NCBI GenBank assembly: GCA_949127665.1
Contig: CASBQE010000296.1
Location: 1 to 32,495 of the forward strand
Direction: 5' to 3'
Length of the DNA stretch: 32,495 nucleotides
From: Synechococcales cyanobacterium PMM_0083
Lineage (GTDB): Bacteria > Cyanobacteriota > Cyanobacteriia > Leptolyngbyales > Leptolyngbyaceae
This document shows positions 430 through 24,320 of the stretch, piece after piece (within the stretch, counting starts at the first letter, position 1; each line of letters opens with the position of its first letter). The notes below the pieces were generated by a model. The model saw only the letters and a list, made by a program, of their open reading frames with translations, was not told where the DNA came from and did no database searches. The position numbers and the translations under genes were made by a program.

Positions 430-434
430 ACTCT

Positions 435-3862: not shown

Positions 3863-3884
3863 GGGCGAGGCTTCGGCTTTCAGG

Positions 3885-3934
3885 TTTTGGGTTCCGGGGT
3901 TTTGGGTTTCGGGGTTTTGGGTTTCGGGGTTTTG
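3885..3934 (+). repeat. 15-bp G-rich tandem repeat, potential G-quadruplex
   Basis: The unit TTTTGGGTTYCGGGG is repeated 3.3 times (3885-3899, 3900-3914, 3915-3929, then TTTTG). The + strand carries six runs of three or four guanines separated by 3-4 base loops, the classic pattern of an intramolecular G-quadruplex. It lies between two convergent genes, so it is in the 3' region of the hypothetical gene's mRNA and would be C-rich in the truB transcript. The frame on the minus strand is a repeat artefact. Confidence 0.85.
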
Positions 3935-3970
3935 AGATAGTTTGCTCTGCACTCCAAACTCTTTGCTTGT

Positions 3971-4885
3971 TTATAACTCTGCGCTGTCTAGAAAAACAAT
4001 CCGGGCGGTGAGGATGGTTCCGGTTGGGGGATCGGTGAGTTGCCCGATGCCGAGAAAGGTTCCGGTTTCGGTGTGAATCCGAAGCGGGGCGCGGCTAGTG
4101 GTGAAAGTTTCTGGTAAATCGTAGGGGGCGATGCGTTGACCTTGGCACCAGCGTTTGGCAAGAGTGGGAGAGAGGGCGATCGCCTCTAGATGTTCCAACA
4201 CTTCATCCGGCCAAACAGGCTGCAAGGTCTGCTGCTGAAGCTGTTCTTCTAGCTGTTCTAAAGTGAGGCTATTTTCTAAGTCAAAGCCGTTGCTTTGGGT
4301 GCGGGTTAGGTTTGCCAGGGTGCCGAAGGTTTGTAACGCAGTGCCCAGATCACGAGCGATCGCCCGGATATAAGTACCACCGCCACAGGCAATATCAATC
4401 TCCAACTCAGGAAACTCTCCTGGCTGCCAACTCACTATTTTGATGTCCGACACTTCCACCGTGCGCGTCGGCACTTCCACATTTCCCCCCGATCGCGCCA
4501 AGTCATAAAGCCGCTTACCATCCACTTGAATGGCGCTGTAAATCGGCGGCACCTGCTGAATCGTGCCTTGAAACTGCTGGAGCGCGATTTTCACACTGGC
4601 TAGATCTAAATGGAGGACAGACTGCTGATTGAGGATTTCGCCCTCCAAATCATCGGTGGTGGTGCTGACTCCAAACCGAATCACGGCTCGATATGCCTTA
4701 TCCGATCGCAAAAACTGAAGCAGCCGAGTTGCCCGACCGACCGCGATCGGCAAAACACCTATCGCCAAAGGATCAAGTGTGCCAGCGTGCCCGATTCGCC
4801 GTGTGTTCAACAGTCGCCGCAGTTTTGCCACGCAGTCGTGCGACGTGAAACCCACAGGCTTATTTAGATTTAGGAAACCATCCAT
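3971..4885 (-). CDS. truB: tRNA pseudouridine(55) synthase TruB
   Basis: TruB isomerises uridine 55 in the T-loop of tRNAs. The start chosen at 4885 gives MDGFLNLNKPVGFTSHD, the standard N-terminus, and a 304-residue protein of usual length; an ATG/GTG further upstream (to 4933) would add 16 unconserved residues. The catalytic block HAGTLDPLAIGVLPIAVG carries the nucleophilic Asp, followed by KAYRAVIRFG, PPIYSAIQVDGKRLYDLAR and the CGGGTYIRAIARDLG motif near residue 180. A C-terminal PUA-like domain follows. No good Shine-Dalgarno sequence is seen. It is transcribed divergently from xthA, with about 143 bases between the starts. Confidence 0.95.
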   Translation of the reverse strand: MDGFLNLNKPVGFTSHDCVAKLRRLLNTRRIGHAGTLDPLAIGVLPIAVGRATRLLQFLRSDKAYRAVIRFGVSTTTDDLEGEILNQQSVLHLDLASVKIALQQFQGTIQQVPPIYSAIQVDGKRLYDLARSGGNVEVPTRTVEVSDIKIVSWQPGEFPELEIDIACGGGTYIRAIARDLGTALQTFGTLANLTRTQSNGFDLENSLTLEQLEEQLQQQTLQPVWPDEVLEHLEAIALSPTLAKRWCQGQRIAPYDLPETFTTSRAPLRIHTETGTFLGIGQLTDPPTGTILTARIVFLDSAEL

Positions 4886-5028
4886 GTAAAAATTGGCTTT
4901 AAGTTCCTTTGTATTGTCTCGGAACATTCCCAAAACGCAAAACTGCTATTCTCAAAAAGCCGACTGCGATTCCCGTAGGAATTCCTGTGGAAAGCTTTGC
5001 CAACGTTTCACAAATCGCCCTTTGCCCG

Positions 5029-5811
5029 ATGAAAATTGCCACCTGGAATGTCAACTCAATTCGTACTCGTCTGCCCCACACCACAGACTGGCTGAAAAAT
5101 ACTTCAGTAGACGTGCTGTGTTTGCAGGAAACTAAGGTGGTAGATGAGAAATTTCCGCGCGATGCTTTTACTGAAATTGGCTATCATGCCGAAATTTTTG
5201 GGCAGCCCAGCTACAACGGCGTTGCGATCTTGAGCCGTGAACCGTTGAGTGATATCAGCCGAGGCTTTGCGCCAATCTTGGGCGATCGCGTGGCTGAGTT
5301 TGATCAGCAGAAACGGGTGATCACCGGGATTATTGGCGATCTGCGCGTGGTGAATTTATACGTGCCCAATGGGTCAGCCGTGGGCAGCGAAAAGTATATT
5401 TACAAGCTGCGCTGGTTGGAAGTGCTGCATGACTATTTGAAAGCGCTGATGCTGGAACCCAATCATCTGCTGGTCTGTGGCGATTTCAATATTGCGTTAG
5501 AAGACATCGACATTCATGATCCAACAGGGCGGGTGAATCAGGTGATGGCAACCGATTTAGAGCGAGTAGCGCTGCAAGTGATTTTGCGGTTGGGCTTGGC
5601 AGACGTGTTTCGCAAATTTATCAAAGACGGCGGACACTTTAGCTGGTGGGATTATCGAGCGGCGGCATTTCGGCGCGACATGGGCTGGCGAATTGATCAC
5701 ATTTACCTATCGCCTGACCTATATGAGAAAGCGATCGCCTGCGCGATCGACAAAGCACCCCGTAAACTAGAACAACCCAGTGACCACACTCCGGTCATCG
5801 TCGAATTTTAA
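5029..5811 (+). CDS. xthA: exodeoxyribonuclease III (AP endonuclease)
   Basis: This 260-residue protein belongs to the exonuclease-endonuclease-phosphatase fold and would cleave DNA at abasic sites in base-excision repair. The ATG at 5029 starts MKIATWNVNSIR, the usual N-terminus; the frame runs 40 residues further upstream but without family similarity. Visible motifs are WNVNSIR (metal-binding Asn), LCLQETK (metal-binding Glu), YNGVAILSR, LYVPNGS, CGDFNIA (catalytic Asp and Asn), GWRIDHIYLS and the final SDHTPVIVEF (catalytic Asp-His). All expected catalytic residues are present. It stands alone, divergent from truB. Confidence 0.95.
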   Translation: MKIATWNVNSIRTRLPHTTDWLKNTSVDVLCLQETKVVDEKFPRDAFTEIGYHAEIFGQPSYNGVAILSREPLSDISRGFAPILGDRVAEFDQQKRVITGIIGDLRVVNLYVPNGSAVGSEKYIYKLRWLEVLHDYLKALMLEPNHLLVCGDFNIALEDIDIHDPTGRVNQVMATDLERVALQVILRLGLADVFRKFIKDGGHFSWWDYRAAAFRRDMGWRIDHIYLSPDLYEKAIACAIDKAPRKLEQPSDHTPVIVEF

Positions 5812-6058
5812 TCGATTGTAAATATGCTTATGGTACTGAGACGTTCCTTGATCCGATGCGGCTAAGGTATCGATTAATTTCTCTGAGACTTGAAAAATTC
5901 ACTATGAAGGCTTTTATACCTTGTTGTTGGCTGGGATTAGAATAAGTGCGATCGCCGTATCTTCCCAAGATAAGCTGGTCAGCATTCAAGTTGCATAAAA
6001 TCGGGTTTGAAACCCTTGCTGTTAGGGGATCAGTTTGGAAAAAGTAGATGACGATTAG
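5812..6058. other. intergenic region with no convincing gene
   Basis: Between xthA and the hemagglutinin-like remnant I see no credible open frame, RNA gene or strong terminator. The minus-strand frame here runs across the remnant and reads as shadow sequence. Confidence 0.4.
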
Positions 6059-6301
6059 CTTATCAGCCGCTCCAAGGGTGCTGCTTTGAACGCCACCACC
6101 ACGGCGGCTAGTCCCGGTGGCAGCATCACCGTAAATACGGGTGGCTTGACCGCAACAACTGGCGGACAACTACTGTTGCAGATTTTCTCAATCAAGCAGG
6201 CAATGCCGCTTGTTGACATAATGCGTTTGCCCTGGGATGGTAATCCATTCGCCAGTTCCACTAGGATAGTGAAGCAAAAGGCTGTTCAAAGCCGAGGTTG
6301 A
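6059..6301 (+). pseudogene. degenerate fragment of a filamentous-hemagglutinin-like repeat protein
   Basis: From 6059 one frame reads LISRSKGAALNATTTAASPG, then GGSITVNTGGLTATTGGQLLL, which is typical of the beta-helix repeats of large secreted hemagglutinin-like (two-partner secretion) proteins of cyanobacteria. The pattern then continues in a different frame as VADFLNQAGNAAC before a stop. There is no start codon or signal region, so it is a decayed, frameshifted piece only about 80 codons long. A short expressed protein from the TTG at 6086 is possible but unlikely. It lies directly upstream of the CPBP protease gene. Confidence 0.45.
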
Positions 6302-6316
6302 AGAGAGGTTAGATAG

Positions 6317-8875
6317 ATGGCTCGATCGCCGCAAACAGATAAGCCAGCACTTGTGCTATCGCCGTTTGGTTGTGGCAATAGGGTCAGTAAATGGCTGCTG
6401 CTGCTGAGTACGATCGCCGCCACGGTGCTATTTCATATCAGTCCTGGTGTCAGCATCGAATCAAACTATGCCATCACGAGCAGAGCGCCGTTTAATCAGC
6501 CAGCATTCTATCCACTCCAGCAAACCCTGCCTGAGGATCTATATCGCCCGGTCGCCCTGTGGATGGGAAGGCTGATTTTGCCCGATCAACAGCAGCAGGG
6601 TAAAACAGATTGGGTATGGATGGAGGTAACCCATGCGCCGCCAAACGCAACGGATTTGATTGGCAAACAGGTGCGGTTGGAATGGAGTCAAAAGCCCTCT
6701 GTGCAGCGCGATGTAGCAGCCGGAACGCGAGATGTAAAATTTTCGCCGCTGGTGGCAGAACTGCGGCGGACAAAAGCTGATTTATACGCCGATCGCCTGA
6801 ATGGGCGATCGCAGGTGGGTGCTTTACAGGCGATCGCCGCAGCCAGACCCAAGGATGACGTAACGGTATCGCTGAGCGCGGCAAACTTAACTCAGCAACC
6901 CAATGGTCAACCCGTCTTGCAAATTGAGCGGGAACCGCTGTTGAATACAGGCAGATATGTGACCCTCGTTAAAATCCTCGGTGCGGCAACAAATTCGCCG
7001 CCCCAATTTATCCCCAAAGCGTGTCCGGGTAAGCTTCCCTGCCCCAGTGAACTTTTTCGGGTGCAGCATTACAATCCGGCAACTGGGCAATTTGACGGCG
7101 TGCAGTCAACCGTTCGCATTCCCCAACAGCCGATTGATGGCAATGGCGTGTATGCTTCCACGCCGCGAGAGTTGGAAAAATCCCCGGCAGGTGCGGCGGG
7201 CTGGTATTTATCCGGTGCCCAAGATAAAACGGGGCTGTTTACCGTGCAGGCAATCAAACCGCGATCGCTGTTTCAACTGAAGCCCCAGCAAGTCTTGTTA
7301 GGCACCGGCAAAGGTTTAGACTACATCAACTATCAAAACTGGGAGAATACGGAGCAACGAAAGGGCACAGTGCAAACGGTTTTAGTTGATCCTCAAGCAA
7401 AGACTTCAGCCGCCGCGATCGCCCAATGGCAAGCAGGCGATCGCGCTTTAGTCATGCACCTGTTTGGCGGCAGGGGCGGCAACAGCGGCGAGGGTTCTGT
7501 GGGTGGCACCGTCACCGGACATTTTGCCTATGGATTGGCAGAGGTGATTCGCGACCCGTTTACCAACGAACTCCAGCTAGACGTGCGCTATCAGCAAGTC
7601 TATGCCAACAACATTGAAGGGATTATTTCTGGGGAGAATTCCTGGACGAACTACATGGGCAACCTCCAACGAGGCTGGCTAGGCACCCGTCCAGTGACCG
7701 ATGTGATTGTCAAATTAGATACGATTGGGCAAGATTATGACTTCGGCGGCATCAAACTCTCGCCCTTCACTGAACTGAGTCGTCAACTTCGGATCATTGG
7801 CGATCGCTACCGGACTGGCGACGGCATCGGCATCGCTAGCGTCACAGCCGCAACCTCCTGTGTGCAGGATTCTAACCAGGCATTGTTCGCGACGATTCAA
7901 TCCATTCGCAAACAGGTTGAATCGAGTCCAGAGATTCAACGCTGGTGGGCAGATCATCCTCAACATCCAACTATTAAACGATTTAAGCAGTTGATTATCT
8001 TAGGAAACGATCTGCAACAAGAACTAACTCCCTTTGGAATTGTGCGGCAAGACTGGAAAACCAATGCTGCCCTATCTGGCACCGAGATCCAACCGCAATT
8101 TGTTCGTGCTGCATCTGGGGCTGGAAATATTCTCACCGCTCTGACAAGCTGGAGAACCATTTTGCCGCGCCAAGCACAGGATGAACTCAGTATTCAATTT
8201 CTGCGGCATGGTGCGAAACTCTGGTTTTTGCAAACCAATCAGATCGGCGGCAACAATCCCGATATTCTGCCGATCGCCCCAACCCAAGCCTTTGGCAAAT
8301 GGACACTACCCGGCACGAACATTGCGATCGTCACCATTCTATTCACCCGAATCTTGGGTGCAGTGAACTTGCCAAATCTACAGGAATGGGGCGTTGCGTT
8401 TTGGGCGCTGCTGTTCTATGCAGCGATCGCCCTACCCATTGGCTACTCTCAACGCTTTTTGCAATTCAAACCTTGGCATGTCTCCGGGCAGCAATACCTG
8501 CTGTTGGCAATCCGCTTATTTTTCATGCCTGCTCTGATCGAAGAGTTCATTTTTCGCGTCTTACTGTTGCCCTATCCTAGCGCTGGAATTACTGGGCAAA
8601 TGTGGATGATCTGGGCGGTCTTCAGTCTAATTCTGTTCATTGCTTACCACCCCATCAACGCCAAAACCTTTTACAAACCCGGCAACCCCACCTTTTTCAA
8701 CCCCGTGTTTTTGACCCTGACCGGATTGCTGGGCATCACCTGCACCGTTGCCTATTTTCTGACTGGCTCCCTGTTAATCATTACGCTGATTCACTGGGTC
8801 GTCACCACTGCCTGGTTAACCCTCTTCGGCGGCATGGAAAAGCTACATCCACAGCCCTCAAAAGTTTACGGTTGA
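6317..8875 (+). CDS. large predicted Abi/CAAX (CPBP) family intramembrane protease
   Basis: The 852-residue protein has a hydrophobic segment near residues 24-42 (KWLLLLSTIAATVLFHI), a soluble domain of about 600 residues that I cannot assign, and a C-terminal multi-pass membrane domain from about residue 675. That domain contains EEFIFR (E742, E743, R747), then H778 in AYHPIN and H826 in LIHWVV, the three-motif signature of CPBP glutamic intramembrane proteases. The long N-terminal part matches my memory of the cyanobacterial group called predicted protease of the Abi (CAAX) family. It is probably extracytoplasmic after the first membrane segment. The substrate is unknown. It ends in TGA at 8873-8875, after which the same frame stays open for 28 codons (see findings). 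Confidence 0.85.
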   Translation: MARSPQTDKPALVLSPFGCGNRVSKWLLLLSTIAATVLFHISPGVSIESNYAITSRAPFNQPAFYPLQQTLPEDLYRPVALWMGRLILPDQQQQGKTDWVWMEVTHAPPNATDLIGKQVRLEWSQKPSVQRDVAAGTRDVKFSPLVAELRRTKADLYADRLNGRSQVGALQAIAAARPKDDVTVSLSAANLTQQPNGQPVLQIEREPLLNTGRYVTLVKILGAATNSPPQFIPKACPGKLPCPSELFRVQHYNPATGQFDGVQSTVRIPQQPIDGNGVYASTPRELEKSPAGAAGWYLSGAQDKTGLFTVQAIKPRSLFQLKPQQVLLGTGKGLDYINYQNWENTEQRKGTVQTVLVDPQAKTSAAAIAQWQAGDRALVMHLFGGRGGNSGEGSVGGTVTGHFAYGLAEVIRDPFTNELQLDVRYQQVYANNIEGIISGENSWTNYMGNLQRGWLGTRPVTDVIVKLDTIGQDYDFGGIKLSPFTELSRQLRIIGDRYRTGDGIGIASVTAATSCVQDSNQALFATIQSIRKQVESSPEIQRWWADHPQHPTIKRFKQLIILGNDLQQELTPFGIVRQDWKTNAALSGTEIQPQFVRAASGAGNILTALTSWRTILPRQAQDELSIQFLRHGAKLWFLQTNQIGGNNPDILPIAPTQAFGKWTLPGTNIAIVTILFTRILGAVNLPNLQEWGVAFWALLFYAAIALPIGYSQRFLQFKPWHVSGQQYLLLAIRLFFMPALIEEFIFRVLLLPYPSAGITGQMWMIWAVFSLILFIAYHPINAKTFYKPGNPTFFNPVFLTLTGLLGITCTVAYFLTGSLLIITLIHWVVTTAWLTLFGGMEKLHPQPSKVYG

Positions 8876-11168: not shown

Positions 11169-11951
11169 CTAATTTTTCAATTGACCGTCTTCTAAATATG
11201 CCACTCGATCCGCCACATCCATCAGACGAGAATCATGGGTAACAATTAGCACCGTACGTCCGTTATCTTTTGCCAGTTTACGGAGCAGTTCAATCACCGC
11301 ATGACCGCTATGAGAATCAAGCGAGGCGGTGGGTTCATCCGCCATGATCAGTTTGGGGTTGTCTGCCAAAGCACGGGCGATCGCCACTCGTTGCTTTTGC
11401 CCACCCGACAAATCGCGCGGCAGGTGATTTATGCGATTATCCAAACCCACTTCCATCAGCAAATCTTTTGCTTGCTTGCGCGCTTCGTTTTTACGAATCC
11501 CCTTCATCCTCAGCGCCACCTCCACATTTTCAGCCGCAGTCAAGGCTGGAAAGAGGTTGAACCCTTGAAAGATAAAGCCAATATTTTTCAAACGAAAGCG
11601 TGATAGCTCATCCTTCGACATGCGTGTAATTTCTTCCCCTAGCAAGCAGACCGTTCCCGATGTTGGGGTCAAAATGCCAGCCAAAATCGAAAGGAGAGTC
11701 GTTTTGCCAGAACCAGAAGGTCCCATCAGCAGTTGAATTTCACCACGGGGAATTTCTAAGTCGATGCCCTGAAGAATCGGGGTAGAATCCGCTCCAGAAC
11801 GAAACTCCATCTTCACGCCCTTGGCAACCACCGCTCGTTTACCCGATCTTTCCCAAGTGCCTGACGCATACAGAGGACGCTCTTGCACAGTAGATGCAGT
11901 GTACTCTGTATGCTGAATGAGTTTGTTAATGTTGATTTGCGAAGCAGTCAT
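11169..11951 (-). CDS. DevA/MacB-type ABC transporter ATP-binding protein
   Basis: The 260-residue protein has Walker A GPSGSGKTT, the Q-loop (GFIFQGFNLFP), ABC signature LSGGQKQR, Walker B LIMADEPTASLD and the switch His in VTHDSR. This is the subclass (LolD/MacB/DevA) that works with FtsX-type permeases. The first 45 or so residues are an extension not needed for the ATPase domain; the start ATG at 11951 is the only early Met. The permease gene 246 bases upstream on the same strand is its likely partner. In heterocyst-forming species DevBCA exports glycolipid with TolC, but no DevB (membrane fusion) gene is adjacent here, so the cargo is unknown. Confidence 0.9.
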   Translation of the reverse strand: MTASQININKLIQHTEYTASTVQERPLYASGTWERSGKRAVVAKGVKMEFRSGADSTPILQGIDLEIPRGEIQLLMGPSGSGKTTLLSILAGILTPTSGTVCLLGEEITRMSKDELSRFRLKNIGFIFQGFNLFPALTAAENVEVALRMKGIRKNEARKQAKDLLMEVGLDNRINHLPRDLSGGQKQRVAIARALADNPKLIMADEPTASLDSHSGHAVIELLRKLAKDNGRTVLIVTHDSRLMDVADRVAYLEDGQLKN

Positions 11952-12197
11952 TGATTAAATCTCTAGTTGCGTGTAGGTGATACAGGCGTAGACAAAAGCG
12001 AGAAGTGGTTTGGATTTAACAATTGATGGGAGCGGACTGAGATTTTAGCTTCAATCGAGAATACGTTTTATCCGCATGGTTTGGATTTACTTTATGAATC
12101 AAACAAAAACAGCCCTTTTATTCATTATTGTAACGAGGATACCAGATGACCTACTTGTCCATGTGACGGAGCTACAGAGCGATCGCGGATTAAGCGG

Positions 12198-13439
12198 TCA
12201 AGCTTTAAAAACAATTGCAGGATCAACATGAGTTACCTTTTGAATGGCAATTAGGGCAGAGCCAACACACATAAATACCGTGAGTCCAAAAACAGCGATC
12301 GCGGTCGTCGGTGTAATCAAAATTACAATTCCTTTCGCGGCAACCGTCCAAGCACCCAAACCCCAACAAAGCGCCATGCTGGGAATGTATCCCAGGATTG
12401 CCATCCACAGCGCTTGCTCTGTAATTACGCCGTAGATTACCCAATCAGACGCTCCCATTGCCTTTAGAGTTCCAAACTCTTTCAGGTGATCTGAAACCGA
12501 CGAATATAAAATCTGGCTGACCACCACAATCCCCACAATCACCCCTACGGCTGCGCCCAACCCTAAAATAAAGCCGATTCCAGTCCGTTCTCGCCAGTAA
12601 GATCGGGTGATCGATGCCATTTCCTCCTTGGTATAAGCGCGAGTGTTCGGTAGCTTTGCCTCCAAGCGCTGTTTCAGCACTTGCAAGTCTTGATCTGGCT
12701 TTGCCTGCACGAGTACATAACTAATGGGGTCTACTAAATTTAGACGACGCGGCTGGGGTTGAGGTTCACTTAATTGAATATCAGCAGTTGAGAGCGGATT
12801 TTTGCAATCCACGTCGCCAGAATTGATCGTGCAATTTAAAGATGAGCCTAATCCTGAGGTGAAAGCATTCGCAGATTCTAAGGAGGCATAGATAGATGTG
12901 CTAGATGCCATTGATTGAGTGTATTCGCTTAACCCAACCAGCTTGGCTTTTAGCGGCACAATTTTGCCCGTCTCTCCCACTTGCTTGATATTTAGTGCAT
13001 TCAGGTTGCTTCGGTCTGTAATAAATGTATATGCCTCTTTCAAAGCAGTCGGTGTTCCCTTGGACATTGACCAATTACTAAACAGCCGACCCGTTGGATT
13101 AAAGCCCCATATTCTAATGGGGACGATTTTTCCATTTGCATCCAGCCACAGGGAGTTACGAGAAATAACGGCTTCTGCATGGTCTACTCCTTCCACTTCC
13201 CGCGCTTGAATCAATCGCTGTAGCGGCATCGGCAAGGTGATCTCTAGCTGAAGCATTTCTTTGGAGGCAATCCACAAATCGGCATCTGACTGTTCGATCA
13301 ACCGAGTTGTTGATCGAGTAAAGCCATCTAAAATTCCTACTTGGATAGTTACCAAACTGACGGCAAACATGATGCCTGCTTGGGCGACGAGAAAGCGAGG
13401 GATATCTTCAAATAAGTTTTTACGGGCAATAGAAGCCAT
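12198..13439 (-). CDS. DevC-like ABC transporter permease (FtsX/MacB family)
   Basis: The 413-residue permease begins MASIARKNLFEDIPRF, has one membrane segment near residues 18-38 (LVAQAGIMFAVSLVTIQVG), a large external domain (about 40-290), then three membrane segments: IGFILGLGAAVGVIVGIVVV, the region around ITEQALWMAILGYIPSMALC, and ITPTTAIAVFGLTVFMCVG. This 1+3 layout with the GTLKAMGAS coupling motif before the second-last segment is typical of DevC and related FtsX-type permeases, as is the length. It would work with the ATPase encoded downstream. The 246-base gap between them holds no gene. A membrane fusion partner is missing locally. Confidence 0.88.
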   Translation of the reverse strand: MASIARKNLFEDIPRFLVAQAGIMFAVSLVTIQVGILDGFTRSTTRLIEQSDADLWIASKEMLQLEITLPMPLQRLIQAREVEGVDHAEAVISRNSLWLDANGKIVPIRIWGFNPTGRLFSNWSMSKGTPTALKEAYTFITDRSNLNALNIKQVGETGKIVPLKAKLVGLSEYTQSMASSTSIYASLESANAFTSGLGSSLNCTINSGDVDCKNPLSTADIQLSEPQPQPRRLNLVDPISYVLVQAKPDQDLQVLKQRLEAKLPNTRAYTKEEMASITRSYWRERTGIGFILGLGAAVGVIVGIVVVSQILYSSVSDHLKEFGTLKAMGASDWVIYGVITEQALWMAILGYIPSMALCWGLGAWTVAAKGIVILITPTTAIAVFGLTVFMCVGSALIAIQKVTHVDPAIVFKA

Positions 13440-14378: not shown

Positions 14379-15500
14379 TTAATTGAGCAACTTGATTAAC
14401 TGAGGAACCTGATTCTTCCATTGCAATTGAAAGGTTTTCGAGAGTTCTAAGGTATGCAGTCGGTGATACCAACCGTAGGCAATGTACTCTTCGGGATTGG
14501 TCGAAGTTTGCAGTAAGTTGGTGCCATACAAACCTGTCTTTTCGCTGCCAGAAACCACAAAGTTTTGCGGATCAATGGGTTGGTAATCTCCCGTAATCTG
14601 GTCGGAAACATACCAGTACAGCGATGAATTATTAATCTGCTTTTGCTTAGTTATTTTCAACCAATCGGGATTAAAAAATTGTTTAAAGCAGGAAAAGAAC
14701 AGGTGATATTTGCCGTTGCGATAGATAATCTGTGGACGTTCCATGTGATAGTAAGCCCAAGGTTCAGCTTTATCAGAAACAGCGATCGCGGGGGGCAAAA
14801 TTTGATAGGGTCCGGTAACGGTGTCTGCTACAGCTAGCCCAACACAACCCTGAAAGTTGCCTGGAGCTTTGGCTGAAGCGCAAATAAATAGGTAATATTT
14901 TCCGGTTTGACTATCTTTATATAGATAAGGATCACGCCAATGAAAATGCCCTGTCCAATTGCTGCGTTCATACCAAAGATCATCAGCTTCTGGCATAATC
15001 AACGGTTGATTAGAATGACGCGAAAAATGGATGCCATCCGTTGAAGTGGCTAAGCCAATACCTTCGTTGTGCAAATGCGGAATCTCCTGACCACCCGCTG
15101 AGTAAAACAGATAGTAAACGCCGTTTTCTTGATAGGTACAGCCTGCACAAACTCGACCCGATTCCCAGTCATTTGTTGACTCTGGTTCTAATAGCGTTCC
15201 CAGTCGTTCCCAGTGTTCCAAATCGGTAGAAATTGCGCCACAAATTTGGCTGTAACTCCACCAAGGATCTTTCCCTTCAATTCCTTCTAAATAATAGACT
15301 CGATAAACATCGCCATCTTTGAGAATCCACGGGTCCCAGATTGGGTTGCCTAGGCGCGATCGCCGCAATAATCCTGTGATCACCTTGCTCAAGCTAACCT
15401 GAGTGCGTTCACCCCAGGCGATCGCGTCTGGGTTCATATATTCAGTCGGCAATGGCTCAAGTAAACTGAGTATTTGACGTTGGAATCGGGACAGTTTCAT
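14379..15500 (-). CDS. clan-J glycoside hydrolase-like beta-propeller protein in the MAA operon
   Basis: This 373-residue protein resembles the five-bladed beta-propellers of GH32/GH43/GH68. The three acids typical of that clan are visible: D56 in GNPIWDPWI near the first blade, D190 in HWRDPYLY (the transition-state Asp of the RDP motif), and E254 in YHMERPQI (acid/base). Blade-like repeats YYLFYS, YYLFICAS and YHLFFS support the fold. It has no signal peptide, so it would act in the cytosol. Its ATG overlaps the stop of the upstream methyltransferase gene in ATGA (15497-15500), so it is translationally coupled to the mys operon. It may transfer, trim or bind a sugar on a mycosporine. Sucrose- or arabinan-type activities cannot be distinguished, and a generic GH43-like role remains possible. 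Confidence 0.75.
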   Translation of the reverse strand: MKLSRFQRQILSLLEPLPTEYMNPDAIAWGERTQVSLSKVITGLLRRSRLGNPIWDPWILKDGDVYRVYYLEGIEGKDPWWSYSQICGAISTDLEHWERLGTLLEPESTNDWESGRVCAGCTYQENGVYYLFYSAGGQEIPHLHNEGIGLATSTDGIHFSRHSNQPLIMPEADDLWYERSNWTGHFHWRDPYLYKDSQTGKYYLFICASAKAPGNFQGCVGLAVADTVTGPYQILPPAIAVSDKAEPWAYYHMERPQIIYRNGKYHLFFSCFKQFFNPDWLKITKQKQINNSSLYWYVSDQITGDYQPIDPQNFVVSGSEKTGLYGTNLLQTSTNPEEYIAYGWYHRLHTLELSKTFQLQWKNQVPQLIKLLN

Positions 15501-16555
15501 GGGCGAATTCCAAACTCCATCGCCGAAAGATTCGTCGAGCTATCCACAGATTTTTCTAACACAAATCCACACTGCTCAAATAAGGCTTGAAAGTGTTTGC
15601 GAGTGCGCCATTCACCACCTGGCACCGCCACGCTAATTTGTACCGCAAACACTCCCGGCATAATGCCATCGGGTGCAACTTTGGGTTCATCCAGATCAGG
15701 AATAAACGCTTGCAGCAAGATGATTTTGCCGTGGGGCGGCAAAGCTTTTTTGCAGTTATTGATAATCTTGAGCGCGTTCTCATCATCCCAAGCGGAGAGA
15801 AAATATTTCATGACGATCGCGTCTGCTCCCTCTGGCACCGATTCAAATACATCGCCAGAAATAATTTTCACGGTGTCTGCTGCAACGCCTTGCTGCTGCA
15901 AATAAGCCGGAGCCGTTTCCAGCACGTAGGGCACATCCAACAAAATGCCCTTACAGCCCGTTTTTTTCACAACTCGCGCAATCAATCCGCCCTGACCGCC
16001 GCCAACATCCATCACGGTTTTGAACGGGCTGAAATCGTATACATCCAACACAGAATCAACCGTATGTTCGGTCAAAAAACTCATGGCGTTAATGAACACA
16101 TCGCCGCTCCAGTCGTGGTTTTGGCAGTAGTCATACACGGTTTCGCCATTGGCTCGTTCAAACGGCACCTCGCCCGTGGCTAGCGCCTCCTGCAACACAT
16201 TCCAGGATGCCCACTGAGCGGGTTCTAGTAAATGCATGGCGAAATGCCCGATCGAGGCTCCCTGATGGGTGATCAGCAGATTCGACAGTTCCGTGGGCGC
16301 AAACACCTGTCCGGGCTGCTCCTGCAACACGTTGAGATGGGCAAGGGCGCGCAGGATGACGTAGAGCCGCGCGGGTTTGGTGTTTGTTTTTTCGGCGATC
16401 TGTTCAACGCTGAGTGCGCCTTCATCGTGCAATAGGTTGGCAATGCCGAGGTGAATCACGGTGTAAAGGCACTGGCTTTTGATGAAGGCAAAAATCAGGT
16501 CAAACAGTTGTCGCTTCGCGATCGCGGAAGCTTCGGGGGTAAGCGTTGCGGTCAT
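15497..16555 (-). CDS. class I O-methyltransferase-like protein (plant/CrtF type) without the catalytic His
   Basis: From the ATG at 16555 the protein has 352 residues. The start is set by a strong GGAGGAG six bases upstream and lies one base after the mysC stop; a longer frame to 16618 would overlap mysC. An N-terminal winged-helix dimerisation domain (about 15-100, with LSVEQIAEKTNTKPARL) precedes a Rossmann domain with VMDVGGGQGG (181-190) for S-adenosylmethionine. The family motif LHDWxDE reads LSAWDDE here (S254, A255), so the usual catalytic His is replaced. It could be an altered methyltransferase or one of the family's non-methylating derivatives. As fourth gene of the mys operon it likely acts on a mycosporine intermediate. 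Confidence 0.85.
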   Translation of the reverse strand: MTATLTPEASAIAKRQLFDLIFAFIKSQCLYTVIHLGIANLLHDEGALSVEQIAEKTNTKPARLYVILRALAHLNVLQEQPGQVFAPTELSNLLITHQGASIGHFAMHLLEPAQWASWNVLQEALATGEVPFERANGETVYDYCQNHDWSGDVFINAMSFLTEHTVDSVLDVYDFSPFKTVMDVGGGQGGLIARVVKKTGCKGILLDVPYVLETAPAYLQQQGVAADTVKIISGDVFESVPEGADAIVMKYFLSAWDDENALKIINNCKKALPPHGKIILLQAFIPDLDEPKVAPDGIMPGVFAVQISVAVPGGEWRTRKHFQALFEQCGFVLEKSVDSSTNLSAMEFGIRP

Positions 16556-16556
16556 G

Positions 16557-17903
16557 TTAGTCTCCTCCAAGTTCAATGAGTTTACCAATGTTGAAATCGA
16601 TGCGCGTCCATCCACCACCGCGCCGCAGATTGTCTAGCAGCAGCAGCGGAATTTGCCAGTGATGGACAGTGAGAAAGGGCAGCGGATCATTTACTTGAAA
16701 AATCGCATCTTTGCCCTGCCGCAAAATGGCGAGACGGGTTTGCAGTTGAGACCGCGATCGCGTTGTGACCAAGCGCCAGAGTTCGTGATAAAGCCAGTAG
16801 GTCGGTTTGCTGGTCAGCAACGGCTGAATAGGCTGTGGGAATGGCGTTTGCCCCAGATAAGCTTCGGCAACGTCGGGGTGATTATAGAACATGGTGATCG
16901 CAGAATGGGTACGGGGATTGCACTCGATCGCATACACCGTTCCATCCTCAGCCTCAATGAAGTCGAAGGACACTTGCCCGGTTAGCTTGAGCGCTCCAAC
17001 AAAATGCTGAATCCATGCCTGAATTTGGGGCTGCTCGACGTTTTCGTAATTCACCTGAAATGCAGAAGACTTGCAGCAGCAGTGCAGCCGAATTTCGCCA
17101 TCGCGCACGGTGCTATGGGTGCAATATTCCTGCCCGGTGATGAACTCCTGCATAATCCACGGTTTGGCTTTGCTAATCGGTAGACTGTGGACGAACATTT
17201 CCATCGGGTCGAGATCGCAGGGGAGTTGGGTTAAATCCAGCCGCCGCACTGAATCGTAGGGAATGCTTTTGAGAATGTAAGAACGCGATTCGTGATTAAA
17301 ATCGAAGTCAAGTACTTGCTGCGGATCGGTGATCTGAACAGACTTTGGCACCGATAAACCGAGCGATCGCGCTTGTTCGGCAAAGGCAAATTTGTCGTCT
17401 AGTAATTGCGTCATTGCTGCATCCAAGTGCAAGACTTCGCAGCAACCTGATAACACAGGTTTTGCCAATGAATCGTAGTAGCTGGAGACTGGACTGCATA
17501 CTGGAACGTAAATATCAACGTGTTCTTGTTTGGCGATTTGCAGGAGTGAATCGATATATTTTTGTGAGTCTTTTGCAGGTGCGGGAACAGTGTAAAAGCG
17601 ATCAATGGCATTGGAAAATCGATGTCCAGTTAACCAATATTTCTCAGTCTCAACCAAAATTACTCGATGTCCAGCCGCATGAAACGATCGCGCTAATTGC
17701 AACGCTTTCGTCATTTTGCCACCCGTTAGCATCACTGTTTTGCGATCGCCGACAGGCACGGTTATTTTTTGAAACGGGCGACTGATGGTAGTCCAAAACC
17801 AAGCTGCTAGCACCACGAGACAGTTGAACGGCAACATGAACAGCAGCAGCGTCAGCGTGGCGATCGTTTTTAGGGGCGTAGATTGGGGTGGCAGTGGGTT
17901 CAT
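16557..17903 (-). CDS. mysC: ATP-grasp ligase MysC (mycosporine-glycine synthase)
   Basis: MysC activates 4-deoxygadusol with ATP and joins it to glycine to give mycosporine-glycine. I start it at the ATG at 17903, preceded by AGGTGA; a GTG six bases further up is the alternative. The protein of about 448 residues has an N-terminal hydrophobic helix (about 14-42, TLTLLLFMLPFNCLVVLAAW), then the nucleotide-sensing region beginning VMLTGGKMTKALQLARSFHA, an ATP-grasp core with SRSYILKSIPYD and WIMQEFITGQEY, and the metal-binding IECNPRTHSAITMF. Length and the membrane-like N-terminus match MysC proteins of mysABC clusters. An 81-base gap containing a hairpin separates it from mysB. Confidence 0.93.
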   Translation of the reverse strand: MNPLPPQSTPLKTIATLTLLLFMLPFNCLVVLAAWFWTTISRPFQKITVPVGDRKTVMLTGGKMTKALQLARSFHAAGHRVILVETEKYWLTGHRFSNAIDRFYTVPAPAKDSQKYIDSLLQIAKQEHVDIYVPVCSPVSSYYDSLAKPVLSGCCEVLHLDAAMTQLLDDKFAFAEQARSLGLSVPKSVQITDPQQVLDFDFNHESRSYILKSIPYDSVRRLDLTQLPCDLDPMEMFVHSLPISKAKPWIMQEFITGQEYCTHSTVRDGEIRLHCCCKSSAFQVNYENVEQPQIQAWIQHFVGALKLTGQVSFDFIEAEDGTVYAIECNPRTHSAITMFYNHPDVAEAYLGQTPFPQPIQPLLTSKPTYWLYHELWRLVTTRSRSQLQTRLAILRQGKDAIFQVNDPLPFLTVHHWQIPLLLLDNLRRGGGWTRIDFNIGKLIELGGD

Positions 17904-17934
17904 AGTCACCTGAGCATTAGATGTAACCTGATGC

Positions 17935-17965
17935 AGGTTGGGTTTCGTGCAGTTTCACCCAACCT
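17935..17965. repeat. inverted repeat in the mysB-mysC gap
   Basis: AGGTTGGGT (17935-17943) pairs perfectly with ACCCAACCT (17957-17965) around a 13-base loop. It lies in the short spacer of the operon transcript, between the mysB stop and the mysC start. The sequence resembles a widely dispersed cyanobacterial repeat of the GTAGGTTGGGT type. There is no T-run, so it is unlikely to be a full terminator. Confidence 0.7.
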
Positions 17966-17990
17966 ACAAAACGTCTCAACTGACAGACTT

Positions 17991-18824
17991 TCAACAGCGG
18001 CGAATGATGGTTAAGCCATCCCGCACAGGCAGCAAAACCTGTTCAACACGAGAATCTGCCGCAACAACTTGATTAAACTCAGCGATCGCTTGTCCACTGG
18101 CACTGCGCTCTTCTGAAGGCAAATAGGGTTGCCCTTGAAGCAGCGTGTTGTCCACACAAATGATGCCATGTGGGGCTAACAGGTTTCTGTCTAACACTGT
18201 TTGAAAGTAAGCAATGTACTCTCGTTTATCGGCATCAATGAAGACCAGATCAAACGGTTCGGATGCGATCGCTAACTGATTTAAGGTTTCCAAAGCGGCT
18301 CCCAGTTTCACCTCAATTTTGCTGCCGTGAGGCGATGCTTTGAACAGACTTTGAGCCAACTCAGCCGCATAGCGATCGACCTCGCACGCAATCAAACTAC
18401 CGTCTTCTGGCAATGCTTCTGCCATTGCCAGCGCCGAATAGCCCGTAAACATCCCAATGTCCAAAATCCGCCGCGCACGAGTCAGATATACCAGCAGCTT
18501 CAGGGTTTGCCCTTCCACATGACCCGACAGCATCTCTTGTTCCAGATGCCTGACCGTTTTGCCATCGCTAAATCGTTGGCTCCATGCTTCTTGCTGGGTG
18601 CGATCGCTGATTGCCTTAAGCGCCGCCGATTCCGGGGTGGTGCAAGCTTCCACATAAGGATCAAGCCCTGCTGCTAGCTTGAGTGCTTGGTGAAGGTGTG
18701 CCTTTGCCGTGTCCGAAACGGATTCGTGTTCTAGCAATGCCACTGCCTGCTGAAGATGCTCCGTTAGAATGCCCAGCGGCGTAACCGGACGGGCAGCAGT
18801 TGTCGAATCCAAGGTATTAACCAT
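17991..18824 (-). CDS. mysB: O-methyltransferase MysB (4-deoxygadusol synthesis)
   Basis: MysB methylates desmethyl-4-deoxygadusol to 4-deoxygadusol, the core of mycosporines. The 277-residue protein belongs to the caffeoyl-CoA/catechol-type methyltransferases: [20 protein letters not shown] (118-137) is the S-adenosylmethionine site, LIACEVD the acidic ribose-binding loop, and [16 protein letters not shown] the metal- and substrate-binding motif, followed by GIICVDNTL. About 55 N-terminal residues precede the domain. The ATG at 18824 has AGGA upstream and overlaps the mysA stop by 8 bases, a classic coupled arrangement. Confidence 0.95.
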
Positions 18825-20052
18825 TGCTGATTCCTACTAGTTGCGGATTGCTACCCACATAGGCATCAATGCCTGCACTGTGTGGATAGGCGGCGCATAG
18901 CTGTTTGTGTTGCATCAATACGGCTGTCAATTCATCTTGGGTGAAATCGTTGATGAAGTAGCATTCACCAATTGGTTTAGGGGTCGCCACTCTCTGTAAC
19001 CCATCGCGCGTTTGGGTGATAGATTGAGTCGCTTTCCATAGCAGGTCACTGTCTAACAAAGGATGATCTAACGCTAAGCCGAGGCGGTTCATCAAGCCCA
19101 GGATGCGATCGCGATCGGTAGCCGAAATATATCCGCGATGGGCAGCCAGCGTTGCACCCAGCGCCATGTCGATGTTGACTGCATGACCGTGAAGCAGAGG
19201 CACAGCCGGGGCAAGCTCCAGCGTTGGACTCCAAGTGTGACCATAGGCAATCACTCGATCGAGATCGATCTCATGCAGGTTGGGGGTTTCCAATTCCAGC
19301 ATGGTTTTGATCGCTTCGTAGGTGATGCGATGGGCGATCGCGGCTAATTCTGGTGTGCCATCCACGTAGCCAAAATGGGTCTGCAATAGCTGTTTGCCGT
19401 GTGCTTCCAGCAGTTCAAACACCTCTCGGTTAGATACCACCGCAATCTTAACCAACTCTGCCATGCCGTTACGAATTTGGTCGATCGGCAACGTTCGCAA
19501 AAACGAGAAGTCTAGAATCACCTGCTTGGGCGCGTGGTAGGCACCCAAGCGATTTTTCAGCTTGCCGTGATTGACTGCAACTTTGATCGCAATCCCAGCA
19601 TCAATCAAGCCAATTAAGGTCGTGGGAATGCGGATATAGTTTGTGCTGCGACGATAAGCAGAGCAGGCAAATCCAGCAACATCTGTCAGCAAACCGCCGC
19701 CAATAATCAGCACAGGTTCTTTACGGACTAAGCCAAAATCAGCAAAGGCATCAACAATCGTTTCAAAGGTGGCGATCGTCTTGGTTGGTTCACTAATGAC
19801 GATAGGAAAGATCGTTAAATTGATGTCGTAATGGCTAAAATATGCCTGAATTTGGTTGCCATAAAGGCGATTAACATTATGGTCAACTACTGCAAGACAT
19901 CGCCCAAAAGATTTGTAGTTGGCAGCAAGTTCAGGGCGATCGCAATCAAATACACTGTCAACAAAAATCAAATTAAACTCGATCTTTTCGTACCCTTCTA
20001 CATGAAAGGCTGTATCGGTCGCAGAAAATTTTGCCTGAGCAATACCCATCAT
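18817..20052 (-). CDS. mysA: desmethyl-4-deoxygadusol synthase MysA (sugar phosphate cyclase)
   Basis: MysA cyclises sedoheptulose 7-phosphate to desmethyl-4-deoxygadusol using NAD and a divalent metal; it is related to dehydroquinate synthase. In the 411-residue protein the NAD loop is [20 protein letters not shown] (115-134), followed by [21 protein letters not shown]. The metal ligands would be E199 (GMAELVKIA), H272 (AYGHTWSP) and H288 ([11 protein letters not shown]). The context of mysB and mysC favours this over 2-epi-5-epi-valiolone synthase. The ATG at 20052 has AAGGA six bases upstream. It is the first gene of the operon, with 485 bases of upstream noncoding DNA. Confidence 0.95.
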
Positions 20053-20537: not shown

Positions 20538-23500
20538 CTATCCAGTCATACTTCCGAGTCGTCCTTCAATCTCAGCTTCGGCTTCCAATGAGAGCGATCG
20601 CAACTGATCCAGCATCGTTTGATCTACGTTTTCCCACATGCCCCGTTGATGTGCTTCCAGCAGCCGTTCTGCCATATCGCGCAGTGCCCAAGGATTTTTT
20701 TGTTGCACAAACGCCTGCACCTGCGGATCAAGCACATAGGCTTCTGCCACGCCTTCATACATATAGTCGGCGACGCATTGGGCGGTGGCATCGTAGGCAA
20801 ACAGGAAGTCAATTGTTGCTGCCATTTCAAAGGCTCCCTTATAGCCATGCCGCATCGCGCCAGCGATCCATTTGGGGTTGACGACGCGCGATCGATAGAC
20901 CCGCGCAATCTCTTGTTCCAGCGATCGCACCTTGGGATTTTCTGCCAGGGAATGATCGCCAAAATACACCGTTGGGTTTTGCCCTTGAAGCGATCGCACC
21001 GCCGCCGTTAAGCCGCCCTGAAACTGGTAATAATCATCGGAATCGAGCAGATCATGTTCACGGTTGTCCTGGTTTTGCAGCACAACTTGCAGATTGGTCA
21101 GGCGACGTTCAAAAGCTTCCGGTGCCGAGTAACCCACGCCCTGAGCGCTGTAGGCATAGCTGCTCCAATTGAGGTAAGCACGGGCAAGATCCTCTGTCGT
21201 CTCCCAGTTTTGCGATTCGATCAATCCCTGCAATCCGGCACCATAGGCACCGGGTTTGGAGCCAAACACTCGATATCGCGATCGCTGCTCTGCGGCTTCA
21301 GCCGTTAAGCCTGCCTGCTGCCACTCCTGAGTTTCTTGCTGCACCTGTGCCGCCAAGGGATTCTGATCAGTCGATTCATCCAATGCCGCAACCGCTGTCA
21401 CCGCTTGGTCAAATAAATCAATTAGGTTGGGAAACGCATCTCGGAAAAAGCCCGAAATCCGTAGTGTTACATCCACTCGCGGACGACCTAATAGCGACAG
21501 CGGCAATATCTCAAAATCAATCACCCGCCGCGACGCACCTTCCCATACAGGCTGCACGCCCAGCAGCGCCAATGCTTCCGCCAAATCATCGCCCCCGGTT
21601 CGCATGGTGGAAGTGCCCCAGATCGAGAGCGCCAAGGTTTTAGGATACTCACCATGTTCCTGAGTGTAGGTTTCGACCAACACTTCAGCCGCTTTACGAC
21701 CCACATCCCAGGCGCTTTCAGTCGGCACTGCCCGAATATCGACTGAGTAGAAGTTGCGTCCTGTCGGCAACACGTCAGGACGACCCCGCGTGGGCGCACC
21801 GGACGGAGCCGCTGGCACATAGCCTCCTGCCAATCCATGCAGCAAGTAAGACATTTCTTGATCAGTGTGTTGCAGATCGGGCAAGAGGCGATCGCGAATC
21901 CAGTTCAACTCTGTTAATATCTCGTTGTCATCTGATAAATCACTGTATCCATTCAGCAATTGCTCAACCTGTTCGGCGGCGTAGTTCTCGATGATGTCGA
22001 TCACATCACCGATGGTGCGGGGTGGAGGGGTAAAGGAGTGAAGGAGTGAAGGAGTGAAGGAGTAGGGGAGTGCTGGATCGGCTGTCAATGGATCGAAGTC
22101 GAGGTTCCAGGCTTGGGCGATCGCGCGGGTCAAGCCCACTCGTCCCGGTGATGGATGGCGAGCGATGGAGACGATCAGATCGCGCAACTGTCGTCCGGCG
22201 GGGCATTGTCCAAAGATGTGTAAGCCGTCGCGAATTTGAGATTCTTTTAGTTCACACAAATAGCGATCGGCGTTGGTGATCAGTTCCGTTAGGGCGGCGG
22301 GGGTAAATTGATCAAGATCTATATCGCCTGCCATAGCTTGAACTTCCTGACTGAGATTCTCTTGCTGAATCAGTGCGGTCATGCGATCGCGAATCACCGC
22401 TAACCGCGATGGATCGAGGGTTTGAGCTTCGTAGTATTCATCAATCAAGCCTTCAAGCTGCTGCAAACCGCCATAGAGTTCGGCGCGAGTCATGGGCGGG
22501 GTCAGGTGATCAATGATCACGGCTTGCGATCGCCGTTTTGCCTGAGAACCTTCCCCTGGATCGTTGACAATAAACGGATAGATATGGGGAATCGCACCAA
22601 AAGCAACTTCGGGATAGCAATCCTCAGACAGGGCAACACTTTTGCCAGGAAGCCATTCTAAATTGCCATGCTTGCCCACATGGACGATCGCATGGGTGCC
22701 AAAATCCGAACGCAGCCAGTGATAAAATGCGAGATAGTCGTGAGTCGGCTCTAAATCTGGCGCGTGATAGTTGAGTGCTGGATCGGTGTCATATCCGCGT
22801 GTGGGTTGAATGCCCACAAAGATATTACCCAGTTGAATTCCAGCGATTGCAAAGGAGTCTTGAGCCTCTCCCCAGCGTTGACAAATCTGAGTTTTTACGG
22901 TTTCTGGGAGTGTTTCAAACCAATCTCGATAAGCCGCGATCGATAGGGTTTGCCTAACCGGATTCATCCCTTTCGTTTCTGGGTCATTTGTGATGCCTGC
23001 CGTGAGCCGTCGAATCAATTCATCATCGTTTTTTGGAATGTTCTCAACGTGATATCCAGCCTGTTGCAGTGCTTGGAGAATTGCCACACAGCTTGCTGGA
23101 GTATCTAGCCCCACGCCATTGGCAAGGCGACCATTGCGGCTCGGATAGTTAGCTAAAATCAACGACACTTTGCGATCGCATACCTGCTCCTGCCGCAGTT
23201 TCGCCCAATTTGCCGCCAACTCCGCCACAAACTGAATGCGATTGTCCACGGGCTGATAGTTCAGCACTTCCGTTTCCAAGGCTGCATTCCAACCTTGCAC
23301 CGCCTTAAACGAAACTGCGCGGCTAATAATGCGTCCATCGACCTCTGGCAATGCCACATTCATCGCCACATCGCGGGGCGACAACCCGCGCCATTCCTGC
23401 TGCCATTGCGCCAATCCGCCCCCACTTAGAATCACTTGCAGCACGGGAACATCTAACCGTTGCCACAACTCTGGAAAGTCAGAAGTCGTTTCACCGCCGC

Positions 23501-24320
23501 GCTCCCTTTCTCCTAGTTGAGCCAGAGAAAAACTGGTGGTATTCAGCAACACCTGGATGCCAGCTTCATCTTTAGGACGGAAATAGTGCAGCAGTTCTGA
23601 CTGCACATCAGGATCTCGCAGCGACGAGACAAAGATAGGAATAGGACATATATCGCGATCGCTCAATGCCTGACAGAGTGCGTCGATTGGAGCCAAGTTA
23701 CCCGCTAAATAATGCGCTCGGTAGAACACGATCCCAACTTGAGGGGCAGTCTGGATTGCAGGTGGAATTAAGAAAGGATAGATTCCAGCAGACGGCACCA
23801 GTTGCGGCGGTTCATAACCATACTCAGGCGACACCCCGTGATGTGCCAACCAGCACAAAGCATTGACCATGTTCTCGACACCACCCTCTAAAAAGTAGCG
23901 CCAGCACTGGTTCACTTGGGCGATCGCCAACGTGGAATGGCTAATCAGCGTTGGATCAGGCTGGTTATCTCCCGGCAGCACAATCAGCGTTGCACCAGTC
24001 CGTTCGACCGTCTCGCGCACTACTTCCAAACCATAAGACCAGTAGGAGCGACCGCCCAACAGCCGCAGCACAATCACCTGCGCCTGCTCTAAAACGGTCT
24101 CAGCGTAGGTGTCGATCGATAGTTGCTGTTGAAGCTGCAATAGATTGACTACCCGCACAGCCGGGAAGTTGCCAGGGAGATAGGGCATTGCCTGGGCGAT
24201 CGCATTGATGTCCGTATCTGCTGCGGTAATCAACACGATCGGCGCGGGAGTTTGATCCACAAAAATCACGCCTTCTGTGTCAGGAGTCCAACCGCCCGGT
24301 GTTGCTGCCAGTCTATGCAT
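20538..24320 (-). CDS. cobN: cobaltochelatase subunit CobN
   Basis: CobN is the large catalytic subunit of the aerobic, ATP-dependent chelatase that inserts cobalt into hydrogenobyrinic acid a,c-diamide for B12 synthesis; cyanobacteria probably use the Mg-chelatase ChlI/ChlD as partners. The 1260-residue protein starts MHRLAATPGGWTPD. It contains LVPSAGIYPFLIPPA, IVFYRAHYLAGN, VSLILANYPSRNGRLANGVG, AIVHVGKHGNLEWLPGKSV, IYPFIVNDPGEGSQAKRR and KTLALSIWGTSTMRTGGDD, all typical of the CobN/ChlH family, with CobN-like ends. At about residue 760 a low-complexity Ser/Pro/Phe/Leu segment is coded by an 8-bp tandem repeat (22033-22064). No cobalamin riboswitch is visible upstream. Confidence 0.95.
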   Translation of the reverse strand: MHRLAATPGGWTPDTEGVIFVDQTPAPIVLITAADTDINAIAQAMPYLPGNFPAVRVVNLLQLQQQLSIDTYAETVLEQAQVIVLRLLGGRSYWSYGLEVVRETVERTGATLIVLPGDNQPDPTLISHSTLAIAQVNQCWRYFLEGGVENMVNALCWLAHHGVSPEYGYEPPQLVPSAGIYPFLIPPAIQTAPQVGIVFYRAHYLAGNLAPIDALCQALSDRDICPIPIFVSSLRDPDVQSELLHYFRPKDEAGIQVLLNTTSFSLAQLGERERGGETTSDFPELWQRLDVPVLQVILSGGGLAQWQQEWRGLSPRDVAMNVALPEVDGRIISRAVSFKAVQGWNAALETEVLNYQPVDNRIQFVAELAANWAKLRQEQVCDRKVSLILANYPSRNGRLANGVGLDTPASCVAILQALQQAGYHVENIPKNDDELIRRLTAGITNDPETKGMNPVRQTLSIAAYRDWFETLPETVKTQICQRWGEAQDSFAIAGIQLGNIFVGIQPTRGYDTDPALNYHAPDLEPTHDYLAFYHWLRSDFGTHAIVHVGKHGNLEWLPGKSVALSEDCYPEVAFGAIPHIYPFIVNDPGEGSQAKRRSQAVIIDHLTPPMTRAELYGGLQQLEGLIDEYYEAQTLDPSRLAVIRDRMTALIQQENLSQEVQAMAGDIDLDQFTPAALTELITNADRYLCELKESQIRDGLHIFGQCPAGRQLRDLIVSIARHPSPGRVGLTRAIAQAWNLDFDPLTADPALPYSFTPSLLHSFTPPPRTIGDVIDIIENYAAEQVEQLLNGYSDLSDDNEILTELNWIRDRLLPDLQHTDQEMSYLLHGLAGGYVPAAPSGAPTRGRPDVLPTGRNFYSVDIRAVPTESAWDVGRKAAEVLVETYTQEHGEYPKTLALSIWGTSTMRTGGDDLAEALALLGVQPVWEGASRRVIDFEILPLSLLGRPRVDVTLRISGFFRDAFPNLIDLFDQAVTAVAALDESTDQNPLAAQVQQETQEWQQAGLTAEAAEQRSRYRVFGSKPGAYGAGLQGLIESQNWETTEDLARAYLNWSSYAYSAQGVGYSAPEAFERRLTNLQVVLQNQDNREHDLLDSDDYYQFQGGLTAAVRSLQGQNPTVYFGDHSLAENPKVRSLEQEIARVYRSRVVNPKWIAGAMRHGYKGAFEMAATIDFLFAYDATAQCVADYMYEGVAEAYVLDPQVQAFVQQKNPWALRDMAERLLEAHQRGMWENVDQTMLDQLRSLSLEAEAEIEGRLGSMTG
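22033..22064. repeat. 8-bp tandem repeat inside cobN
   Basis: AAGGAGTG is repeated perfectly at 22033, 22041 and 22049, with a fourth copy AAGGAGTA at 22057 and a degenerate GGGGAGTG after it. The unit is not a multiple of three, so gain or loss of a single copy would shift the cobN frame. In the current allele it is read through as YSFTPSLLHSFTPPP, between well-conserved blocks (WNLDFDPLTADP before, TIGDVIDIIENYA after). Confidence 0.9.

Follow-up and report, generated by a model that had tools for sequence, protein, structure and literature searches.

A GH68-like gene and a mysF homologue extend a ligase-less mysABC mycosporine cluster in a leptolyngbyacean cyanobacterium

The window analysed here, a whole stretch of 32,495 nucleotides that forms contig C296 in the draft genome of Synechococcales cyanobacterium PMM_0083 (G000: 4.6 Mb, 484 contigs, 85.9% complete), carries a mycosporine cluster in which a complete mysABC core is followed by a homologue of the methyltransferase gene mysF and by GHA, a gene for a GH68-like protein of glycoside hydrolase clan GH-J. 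The cluster is real and conserved, and its parts are partly known; to the extent of the searches made, GHA and its mutual exclusivity with the ligase MysD had not been described before. With a confidence that falls just short of even, we hypothesize that MysABC make mycosporine-glycine, that GHA adds a sugar (most plausibly a fructosyl unit from sucrose), and that MysF, where present, methylates; the product would then be glycosylated and/or doubly methylated. The five open frames of the cluster are all on the minus strand:

18817-20052, minus strand: mysA, sedoheptulose-7-phosphate cyclase of the desmethyl-4-deoxygadusol synthase type (Pfam DHQ_synthase and DHQS_C)
17991-18824, minus strand: mysB, O-methyltransferase (Pfam Methyltransf_3, 182 bits)
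16557-17909, minus strand: mysC, ATP-grasp ligase for glycine addition (NCBIfam PRK06849, 533 bits)
15497-16555, minus strand: mysF-like gene, 352 amino acids (Pfam Dimerisation and Methyltransf_2)
14379-15500, minus strand: GHA, leaderless GH68-like clan GH-J protein, 373 amino acids (Pfam Glyco_hydro_43/68/32N)

A wide sample of the phylum yielded few GHAs, and a class-level draw yielded 22 genomes with one. Eleven genomes, from three families, have GHA in an operon with mysC/mysF, and three more have it with mysF alone. The order mysABC-mysF-GHA is shared by the window and one genome of family f5 (G545). Several clusters have a second clan-J gene, the GH32-like GHB, between mysF and GHA: mysABC-mysF-GHB-GHA is found in Myxacorys californica (G028), a family relative of the host, in two genomes of family f18 (G499 and G577, the latter with broken mysC and mysF frames), and in G449 of f5, where two small genes are added. 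In G591 (f5) the order is mysABC-mysF-small gene-GHA, with a frameshift, while mysABC-GHA without mysF occurs in three Leptolyngbya genomes (G020, G021 and G024) and also in G022, whose contig stops in mysC. Away from mysABC, G018 and G019 carry a mysF-GHA pair and G004 carries mysF-GHB-GHA. At the Myxacorys and Leptolyngbya loci the cluster alone recurs, with none of the genes that flank it in the window; the same order amid differing flanking genes is therefore more than chance. A first-pass annotation of the window had expected the extra genes to be conserved beside the mys clusters of other genomes, and this comparison of gene order, spanning three families, agrees with it. Within the Leptolyngbya group, a 277-282 amino acid SH3_3-like protein follows mysABC or mysABC-GHA at six loci (L072, L073, L074, L077, L078 and L085), even without GHA.

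The cluster holds neither mysD nor mysE, as that annotation had also said; its suggestion that the MysD step may be coded elsewhere found no support. A MysD profile searched against the host's own genome (86% complete) gave a best E value of 4.9e-9, the weak Ddl-like level common throughout the order, and in the 11 relatives with a mys-type GHA likewise no MysD-type protein was found. Co-occurrence was counted in the genomes of the host's order, together with G449, G499, G545 and G591 from beyond it. Within the order, the profile detects true MysD in G005, G006, G009, G031 and G037 alone, plus fragments in G035; MysD was found in none of the 12 genomes that have both mysC and a mys-type GHA, the near-closed G018 and G019 included. 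Fourteen genomes of the order have a recognisable mysC (fragmentary in G037): five with MysD only, eight with a mys-type GHA only, one (G023) with neither and none with both. Of the six among them that lack GHA, five have MysD (Fisher p ~0.003 within the order, uncorrected for kinship). It was not found in the four genomes from beyond the order, the positives being G131, G236, G338 and G207. Of 18 mysABC neighbourhoods inspected beyond the order, 11 contain a MysD-like gene, and several of the remainder a nonribosomal peptide synthetase (NRPS); mysC clusters without GHA mostly carry mysD or an NRPS gene. As to MysE, the host's own genome has no NRPS match to it at E 1e-60; in relatives, whose NRPS genes show only 36-67% identity to MysE and in many cases encode multidomain proteins, its absence is not proven.

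The catalytic residues and predicted structure of GHA point to GH68. Its triad, D56 (in WDPW), D190 (RDP) and E254 (ERP), aligns with WDTW, RDP and ERP of an archaeal inulosucrase (PDB 7bj4), and all three levansucrase catalytic acids are kept in every complete mys-type GHA, that of G591 being frameshifted. The top structure match of an AlphaFold2 model (predicted local distance difference test score 87.9, predicted template-modelling score 0.89) is again 7bj4, with a Foldseek E value of 1.6e-16 (8.6e-17 for the same protein with sucrose) and a VIA-align Z of 29.6 over 305 residues; rows 1-21 of the VIA-align results are all GH68-type fructosyltransferases or beta-fructofuranosidases (Z 27.9-29.6, ~300 residues). 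The modelled fold is thus nearest to sucrose-using GH68 fructosyltransferases, and suggests sucrose as the natural donor. No signal peptide is apparent by eye at the N-terminus, which makes a cytosolic location probable, in contrast to the secreted levansucrases.

Among close relatives the ratio of nonsynonymous to synonymous substitution rates (dN/dS) of GHA is 0.07-0.13, similar to those of mysC and mysF and indicative of purifying selection. In the GHA tree, the 14 members linked to mys genes or mysF lie on one side of a single branch (support 91/95), apart from 11 others. The examined GHA-like proteins outside mys clusters adjoin glycosyltransferases and O-antigen-ligase-like genes, or sugar ATP-binding cassette (ABC) importers; with paralogues among exopolysaccharide glycosyltransferases or sugar importers, cytosolic sugar chemistry is usual for the family. 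Paralogues at L076, L079 and L139, apparently leaderless, lie in polysaccharide loci with GT4 glycosyltransferases, an O-antigen-ligase-like Wzy_C protein and a Wzt-type ABC exporter. The nearest sister group of the mys-type GHAs (L199 in G601, L200 in G631, L202 in G446 and L203 in G484) adjoins sugar-binding proteins and, in G601 and G446, additionally ABC permeases or a MalK-type ATPase; these loci possibly serve the import of compatible solutes and their cleavage by a GH68-like enzyme. On plasmids (PLSDB), GHA had only matches of ~22-28% identity.

The fourth gene is a mysF homologue. Its start is placed at ATG 16555 because its relatives begin there, at MTA..., and a GTG at 16618 was rejected. 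The best plasmid match of the protein by tblastn (52.1% identity) lies on plasmid pn1 of Nostoc sp. UHCC 0926, adjoining a 387 amino acid dioxygenase, a 1143 amino acid NRPS and a mysC remnant. These neighbours are those of the mysFIE locus whose MysF was named in 2023 (PMC10510106), and the window gene is therefore a MysF homologue. One clade (support 100/99) unites the seven MysF-like proteins and excludes 19 further Methyltransf_2 proteins from the order; the catalytic His and Glu are replaced by Ser and Gln in all seven and retained in all 19 outgroup proteins (Ser275 and Gln303 in the window protein, numbered from the GTG start at 16618). Loss of this base argues against ordinary phenol-type O-methylation and, judged from sequence, fits without proving the N-methylation of a mycosporine amine that PMC10510106 proposed for MysF. 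The first-pass annotation had called the enzymes for the suggested mycosporine unknown; for the second methyltransferase, a new family was rejected in view of the 52% identity, the shared clade and the shared altered active site. Neither a MysI dioxygenase nor a Gly-type MysE accompanies the gene in the window cluster, which is a trait of context and not of the enzyme. When genome contigs were scanned with the protein, the hits were Myxacorys californica and a single unrelated methyltransferase.

Outside the GHA-bearing clusters, a mysF homologue stands directly after mysC, without GHA, at five loci of three further families (L169, L171, L172, L173 and L174, in G046, G461, G110, G555 and G508 respectively). 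Their MysA-like protein is only 34-40% identical (597-630 amino acids in G461, G508 and G555) and none was seen in G110; the first step at these loci may therefore fall to another enzyme. MysD is absent from all five genomes. At L138 (G338, positions 1-6726) the genes after mysABC encode an EamA transporter, a TauD dioxygenase and an NRPS, while the opposite strand carries a mysF homologue; this locus is a variant of the Brasilonema-type cluster.

The core itself is conventional. MysA matches PDB 5tpr over its full length (E 3.5e-197); the entry's printed label is 3-dehydroquinate synthase, and we take it to be the desmethyl-4-deoxygadusol synthase of Anabaena variabilis. MysC is 64-73% identical to the mysC products of other clusters, and its gene may alternatively start at ATG 17903. 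With its sedoheptulose-7-phosphate cyclase, Methyltransf_3 protein and MysC-type ATP-grasp ligase in one operon, the mycosporine core is complete. The mysA and mysB genes overlap by 8 bases. The mysC stop codon TAA (16559-16557) is followed by a single C and then by ATG 16555 of the mysF-like gene, and a direct reading of the junctions confirms both the 1-base gap after mysC and the ATGA overlap before the last gene that had been claimed for them. Three elements at the junctions were read directly:

17936-17964, minus strand: inverted repeat GGTTGGGT...ACCCAACC, within the 81-base gap between mysB and mysC
16564-16568, minus strand: GGAGG Shine-Dalgarno-like site, inside the end of mysC and ahead of the mysF-like gene
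15497-15500, minus strand: ATGA stop/start overlap, coupling the mysF-like gene to GHA

The repeat is possibly a dispersed cyanobacterial one. Promoter and terminator scans gave nothing better than shuffled sequence, and Rfam and tRNA scans were empty.

The route from MysA, MysB and MysC to mycosporine-glycine is an established pathway: MysA and MysB would here yield 4-deoxygadusol, and MysC would join it to glycine to give this oxo-mycosporine. With neither MysD nor MysE, mycosporine-glycine is the expected product, as proposed for Leptolyngbya sp. NIES-2104. The placement, conservation and triad of GHA suggest that sugar addition follows. As a cytosolic, retaining GH68-type enzyme, it would draw a glycosyl unit, most plausibly the fructosyl of sucrose, from a small donor sugar, hold it on Asp56, where Asp190 would act as stabiliser and Glu254 as acid/base, and move it onto a mycosporine hydroxyl, giving a glycosylated oxo-mycosporine. 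The MysF homologue, where present, would methylate the same scaffold, probably on nitrogen because the O-methyltransferase base dyad is lost. The gene architecture, its recurrence, the absence of MysD, the protein families, the catalytic residues and the fold come from the analysis itself; donor and acceptor, transfer over hydrolysis, and the site and order of both modifications are inferred. It is possible, though doubtful, that a whole ligase-less branch exists in which oxo-mycosporines are glycosylated by a sucrose-fed GH68-type transglycosidase, and not by a nucleotide-sugar glycosyltransferase, to give fructosylated (with MysF, N-methylated) mycosporines.

Several points weigh against sugar transfer by GHA. 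GH68-like enzymes hydrolyse too; Pfam scores GHA higher as GH43 (58.1 bits, cut-off 32.2) than as GH68 (43.8 bits, cut-off 27); GHA also occurs without mysF, and away from mysABC in G018, G019 and G004; its nearest sister group, beside sugar ABC importers, fits sugar cleavage equally; and the known glycosylation of mycosporine-like amino acids (MAAs) relies on a GT4 enzyme, MysG1 (PMC11378024). GHA could instead be a hydrolase that mobilises or matures a glycosylated mycosporine by stripping a sugar that was added by a glycosyltransferase coded elsewhere or came with imported material. Frequent hydrolysis among its GH32/43/68 relatives, the sister group beside sugar-binding proteins, ABC permeases and MalK-type ATPases, and the GH32-like GHB of several clusters would suit such a role; we nevertheless consider it unlikely, as GHA is tightly coupled with biosynthetic genes, other paralogues lie in polysaccharide-making loci, and no glycosyltransferase is found within any of the clusters.

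A low probability also attaches to the idea that GHA acts on sucrose or another compatible solute and not on mycosporines, being co-expressed since ultraviolet (UV) exposure and desiccation coincide: the GH68-type fold points to sucrose, and PMC13131328 describes overlapping MAA and desiccation responses, but for a general stress enzyme one would expect neither the single phylogenetic group formed by mys-linked GHAs nor their association with MysD absence. That the cluster is an ordinary mysABC one stopping at mycosporine-glycine, with MysF and GHA as side genes of little effect, has precedents in NIES-2104, a predicted mycosporine-glycine maker with mysABC only (PMC4675709), and in G023, which has mysABC and neither GHA nor MysF; the recurrence of an identical gene order in three families and the purifying selection on GHA and MysF make it very improbable. 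Least credible is a conventional shinorine-type pathway with mysD or mysE in the missing 14% of the draft. Although G000 is 85.9% complete and in 484 contigs, MysD is found in none of the 11 relatives with mysC and a mys-type GHA, near-closed G018 and G019 among them, and the genome has no NRPS match to MysE at the threshold given above. Sugar addition by GHA remains our preferred reading.

Among the neighbours in the window, a CobN-type cobaltochelatase subunit (TIGR02257, 1672 bits) is encoded upstream of mysA on the same strand (20538-24320). Downstream of the cluster (11169-13439) are DevA- and DevC-like exporter genes, with no DevB-like gene between or ahead of them; the pair is possibly a relic or unrelated to the cluster.

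One glycosyltransferase, MysG1, is known to act on mycosporines, and the cluster adds a candidate from another enzyme class that is conserved and goes with loss of the MysD step, in a cyanobacterial group with high-mass UV peaks. These peaks were reported for Leptolyngbya foveolarum, which lacks standard MAAs and whose MAA-like UV peaks, unusually high in mass, were suggested to be glycosylated (PMC4626690); they are an independent hint of a glycosylated product, from a strain not tied to this cluster by genome. The mys-type GHA can serve as a marker for sorting clusters by expected product, five genes make the question of mycosporine glycosylation tractable in Escherichia coli, and GHA, if active, would be a donor-cheap tool for sugar-decorated sunscreens.

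We found no paper tying a GH68-like enzyme to mycosporines or noting exclusivity with MysD (subscription journals were mostly uncovered); for MAA clusters that lack optional genes, the GATOR-GC paper mentions nearby 'glycosyl hydrolases' in passing (PMC11888242). The shinorine/porphyra-334 clusters mysABCD and mysABCE of Anabaena and Nostoc share the mysA-mysB-mysC order at 60-75% identity, but have a MysD ligase or MysE NRPS where the window has a MysF homologue and a GH68-like gene. Parts of the extended cluster have precedents: mysABC with an extra methyltransferase gene after it is known from Brasilonema, together with a transporter, a dioxygenase and an NRPS (PMC9918943), and a mysABC-only cluster, predicted to yield mycosporine-glycine, from Leptolyngbya sp. 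NIES-2104 (PMC4675709), which like the window cluster has neither mysD nor NRPS and for which extra genes are undescribed. The pn1 mysFIE locus of Nostoc sp. UHCC 0926 (PMC10510106) encodes a MysF with 52% identity and the same Ser-Gln change; both it and the Brasilonema cluster include a dioxygenase and an NRPS, whereas the window cluster has neither MysI nor MysE and a GH68-like gene instead. The mysABCJ1D1G1H cluster of Nostoc sp. UHCC 0302 (PMC11378024) likewise has its own sugar-acting enzymes, but these are nucleotide-sugar glycosyltransferases (the GT4 enzyme MysG1, and MysJ1) accompanied by MysD, unlike the window cluster, among whose genes there is no glycosyltransferase. With GH68 levansucrases and inulosucrases, finally, GHA has in common the WDxW, RDP and ERP triad and the five-bladed propeller, and differs from them in its ~20-25% identity, its lack of an apparent signal peptide and its place in an operon with mycosporine genes.

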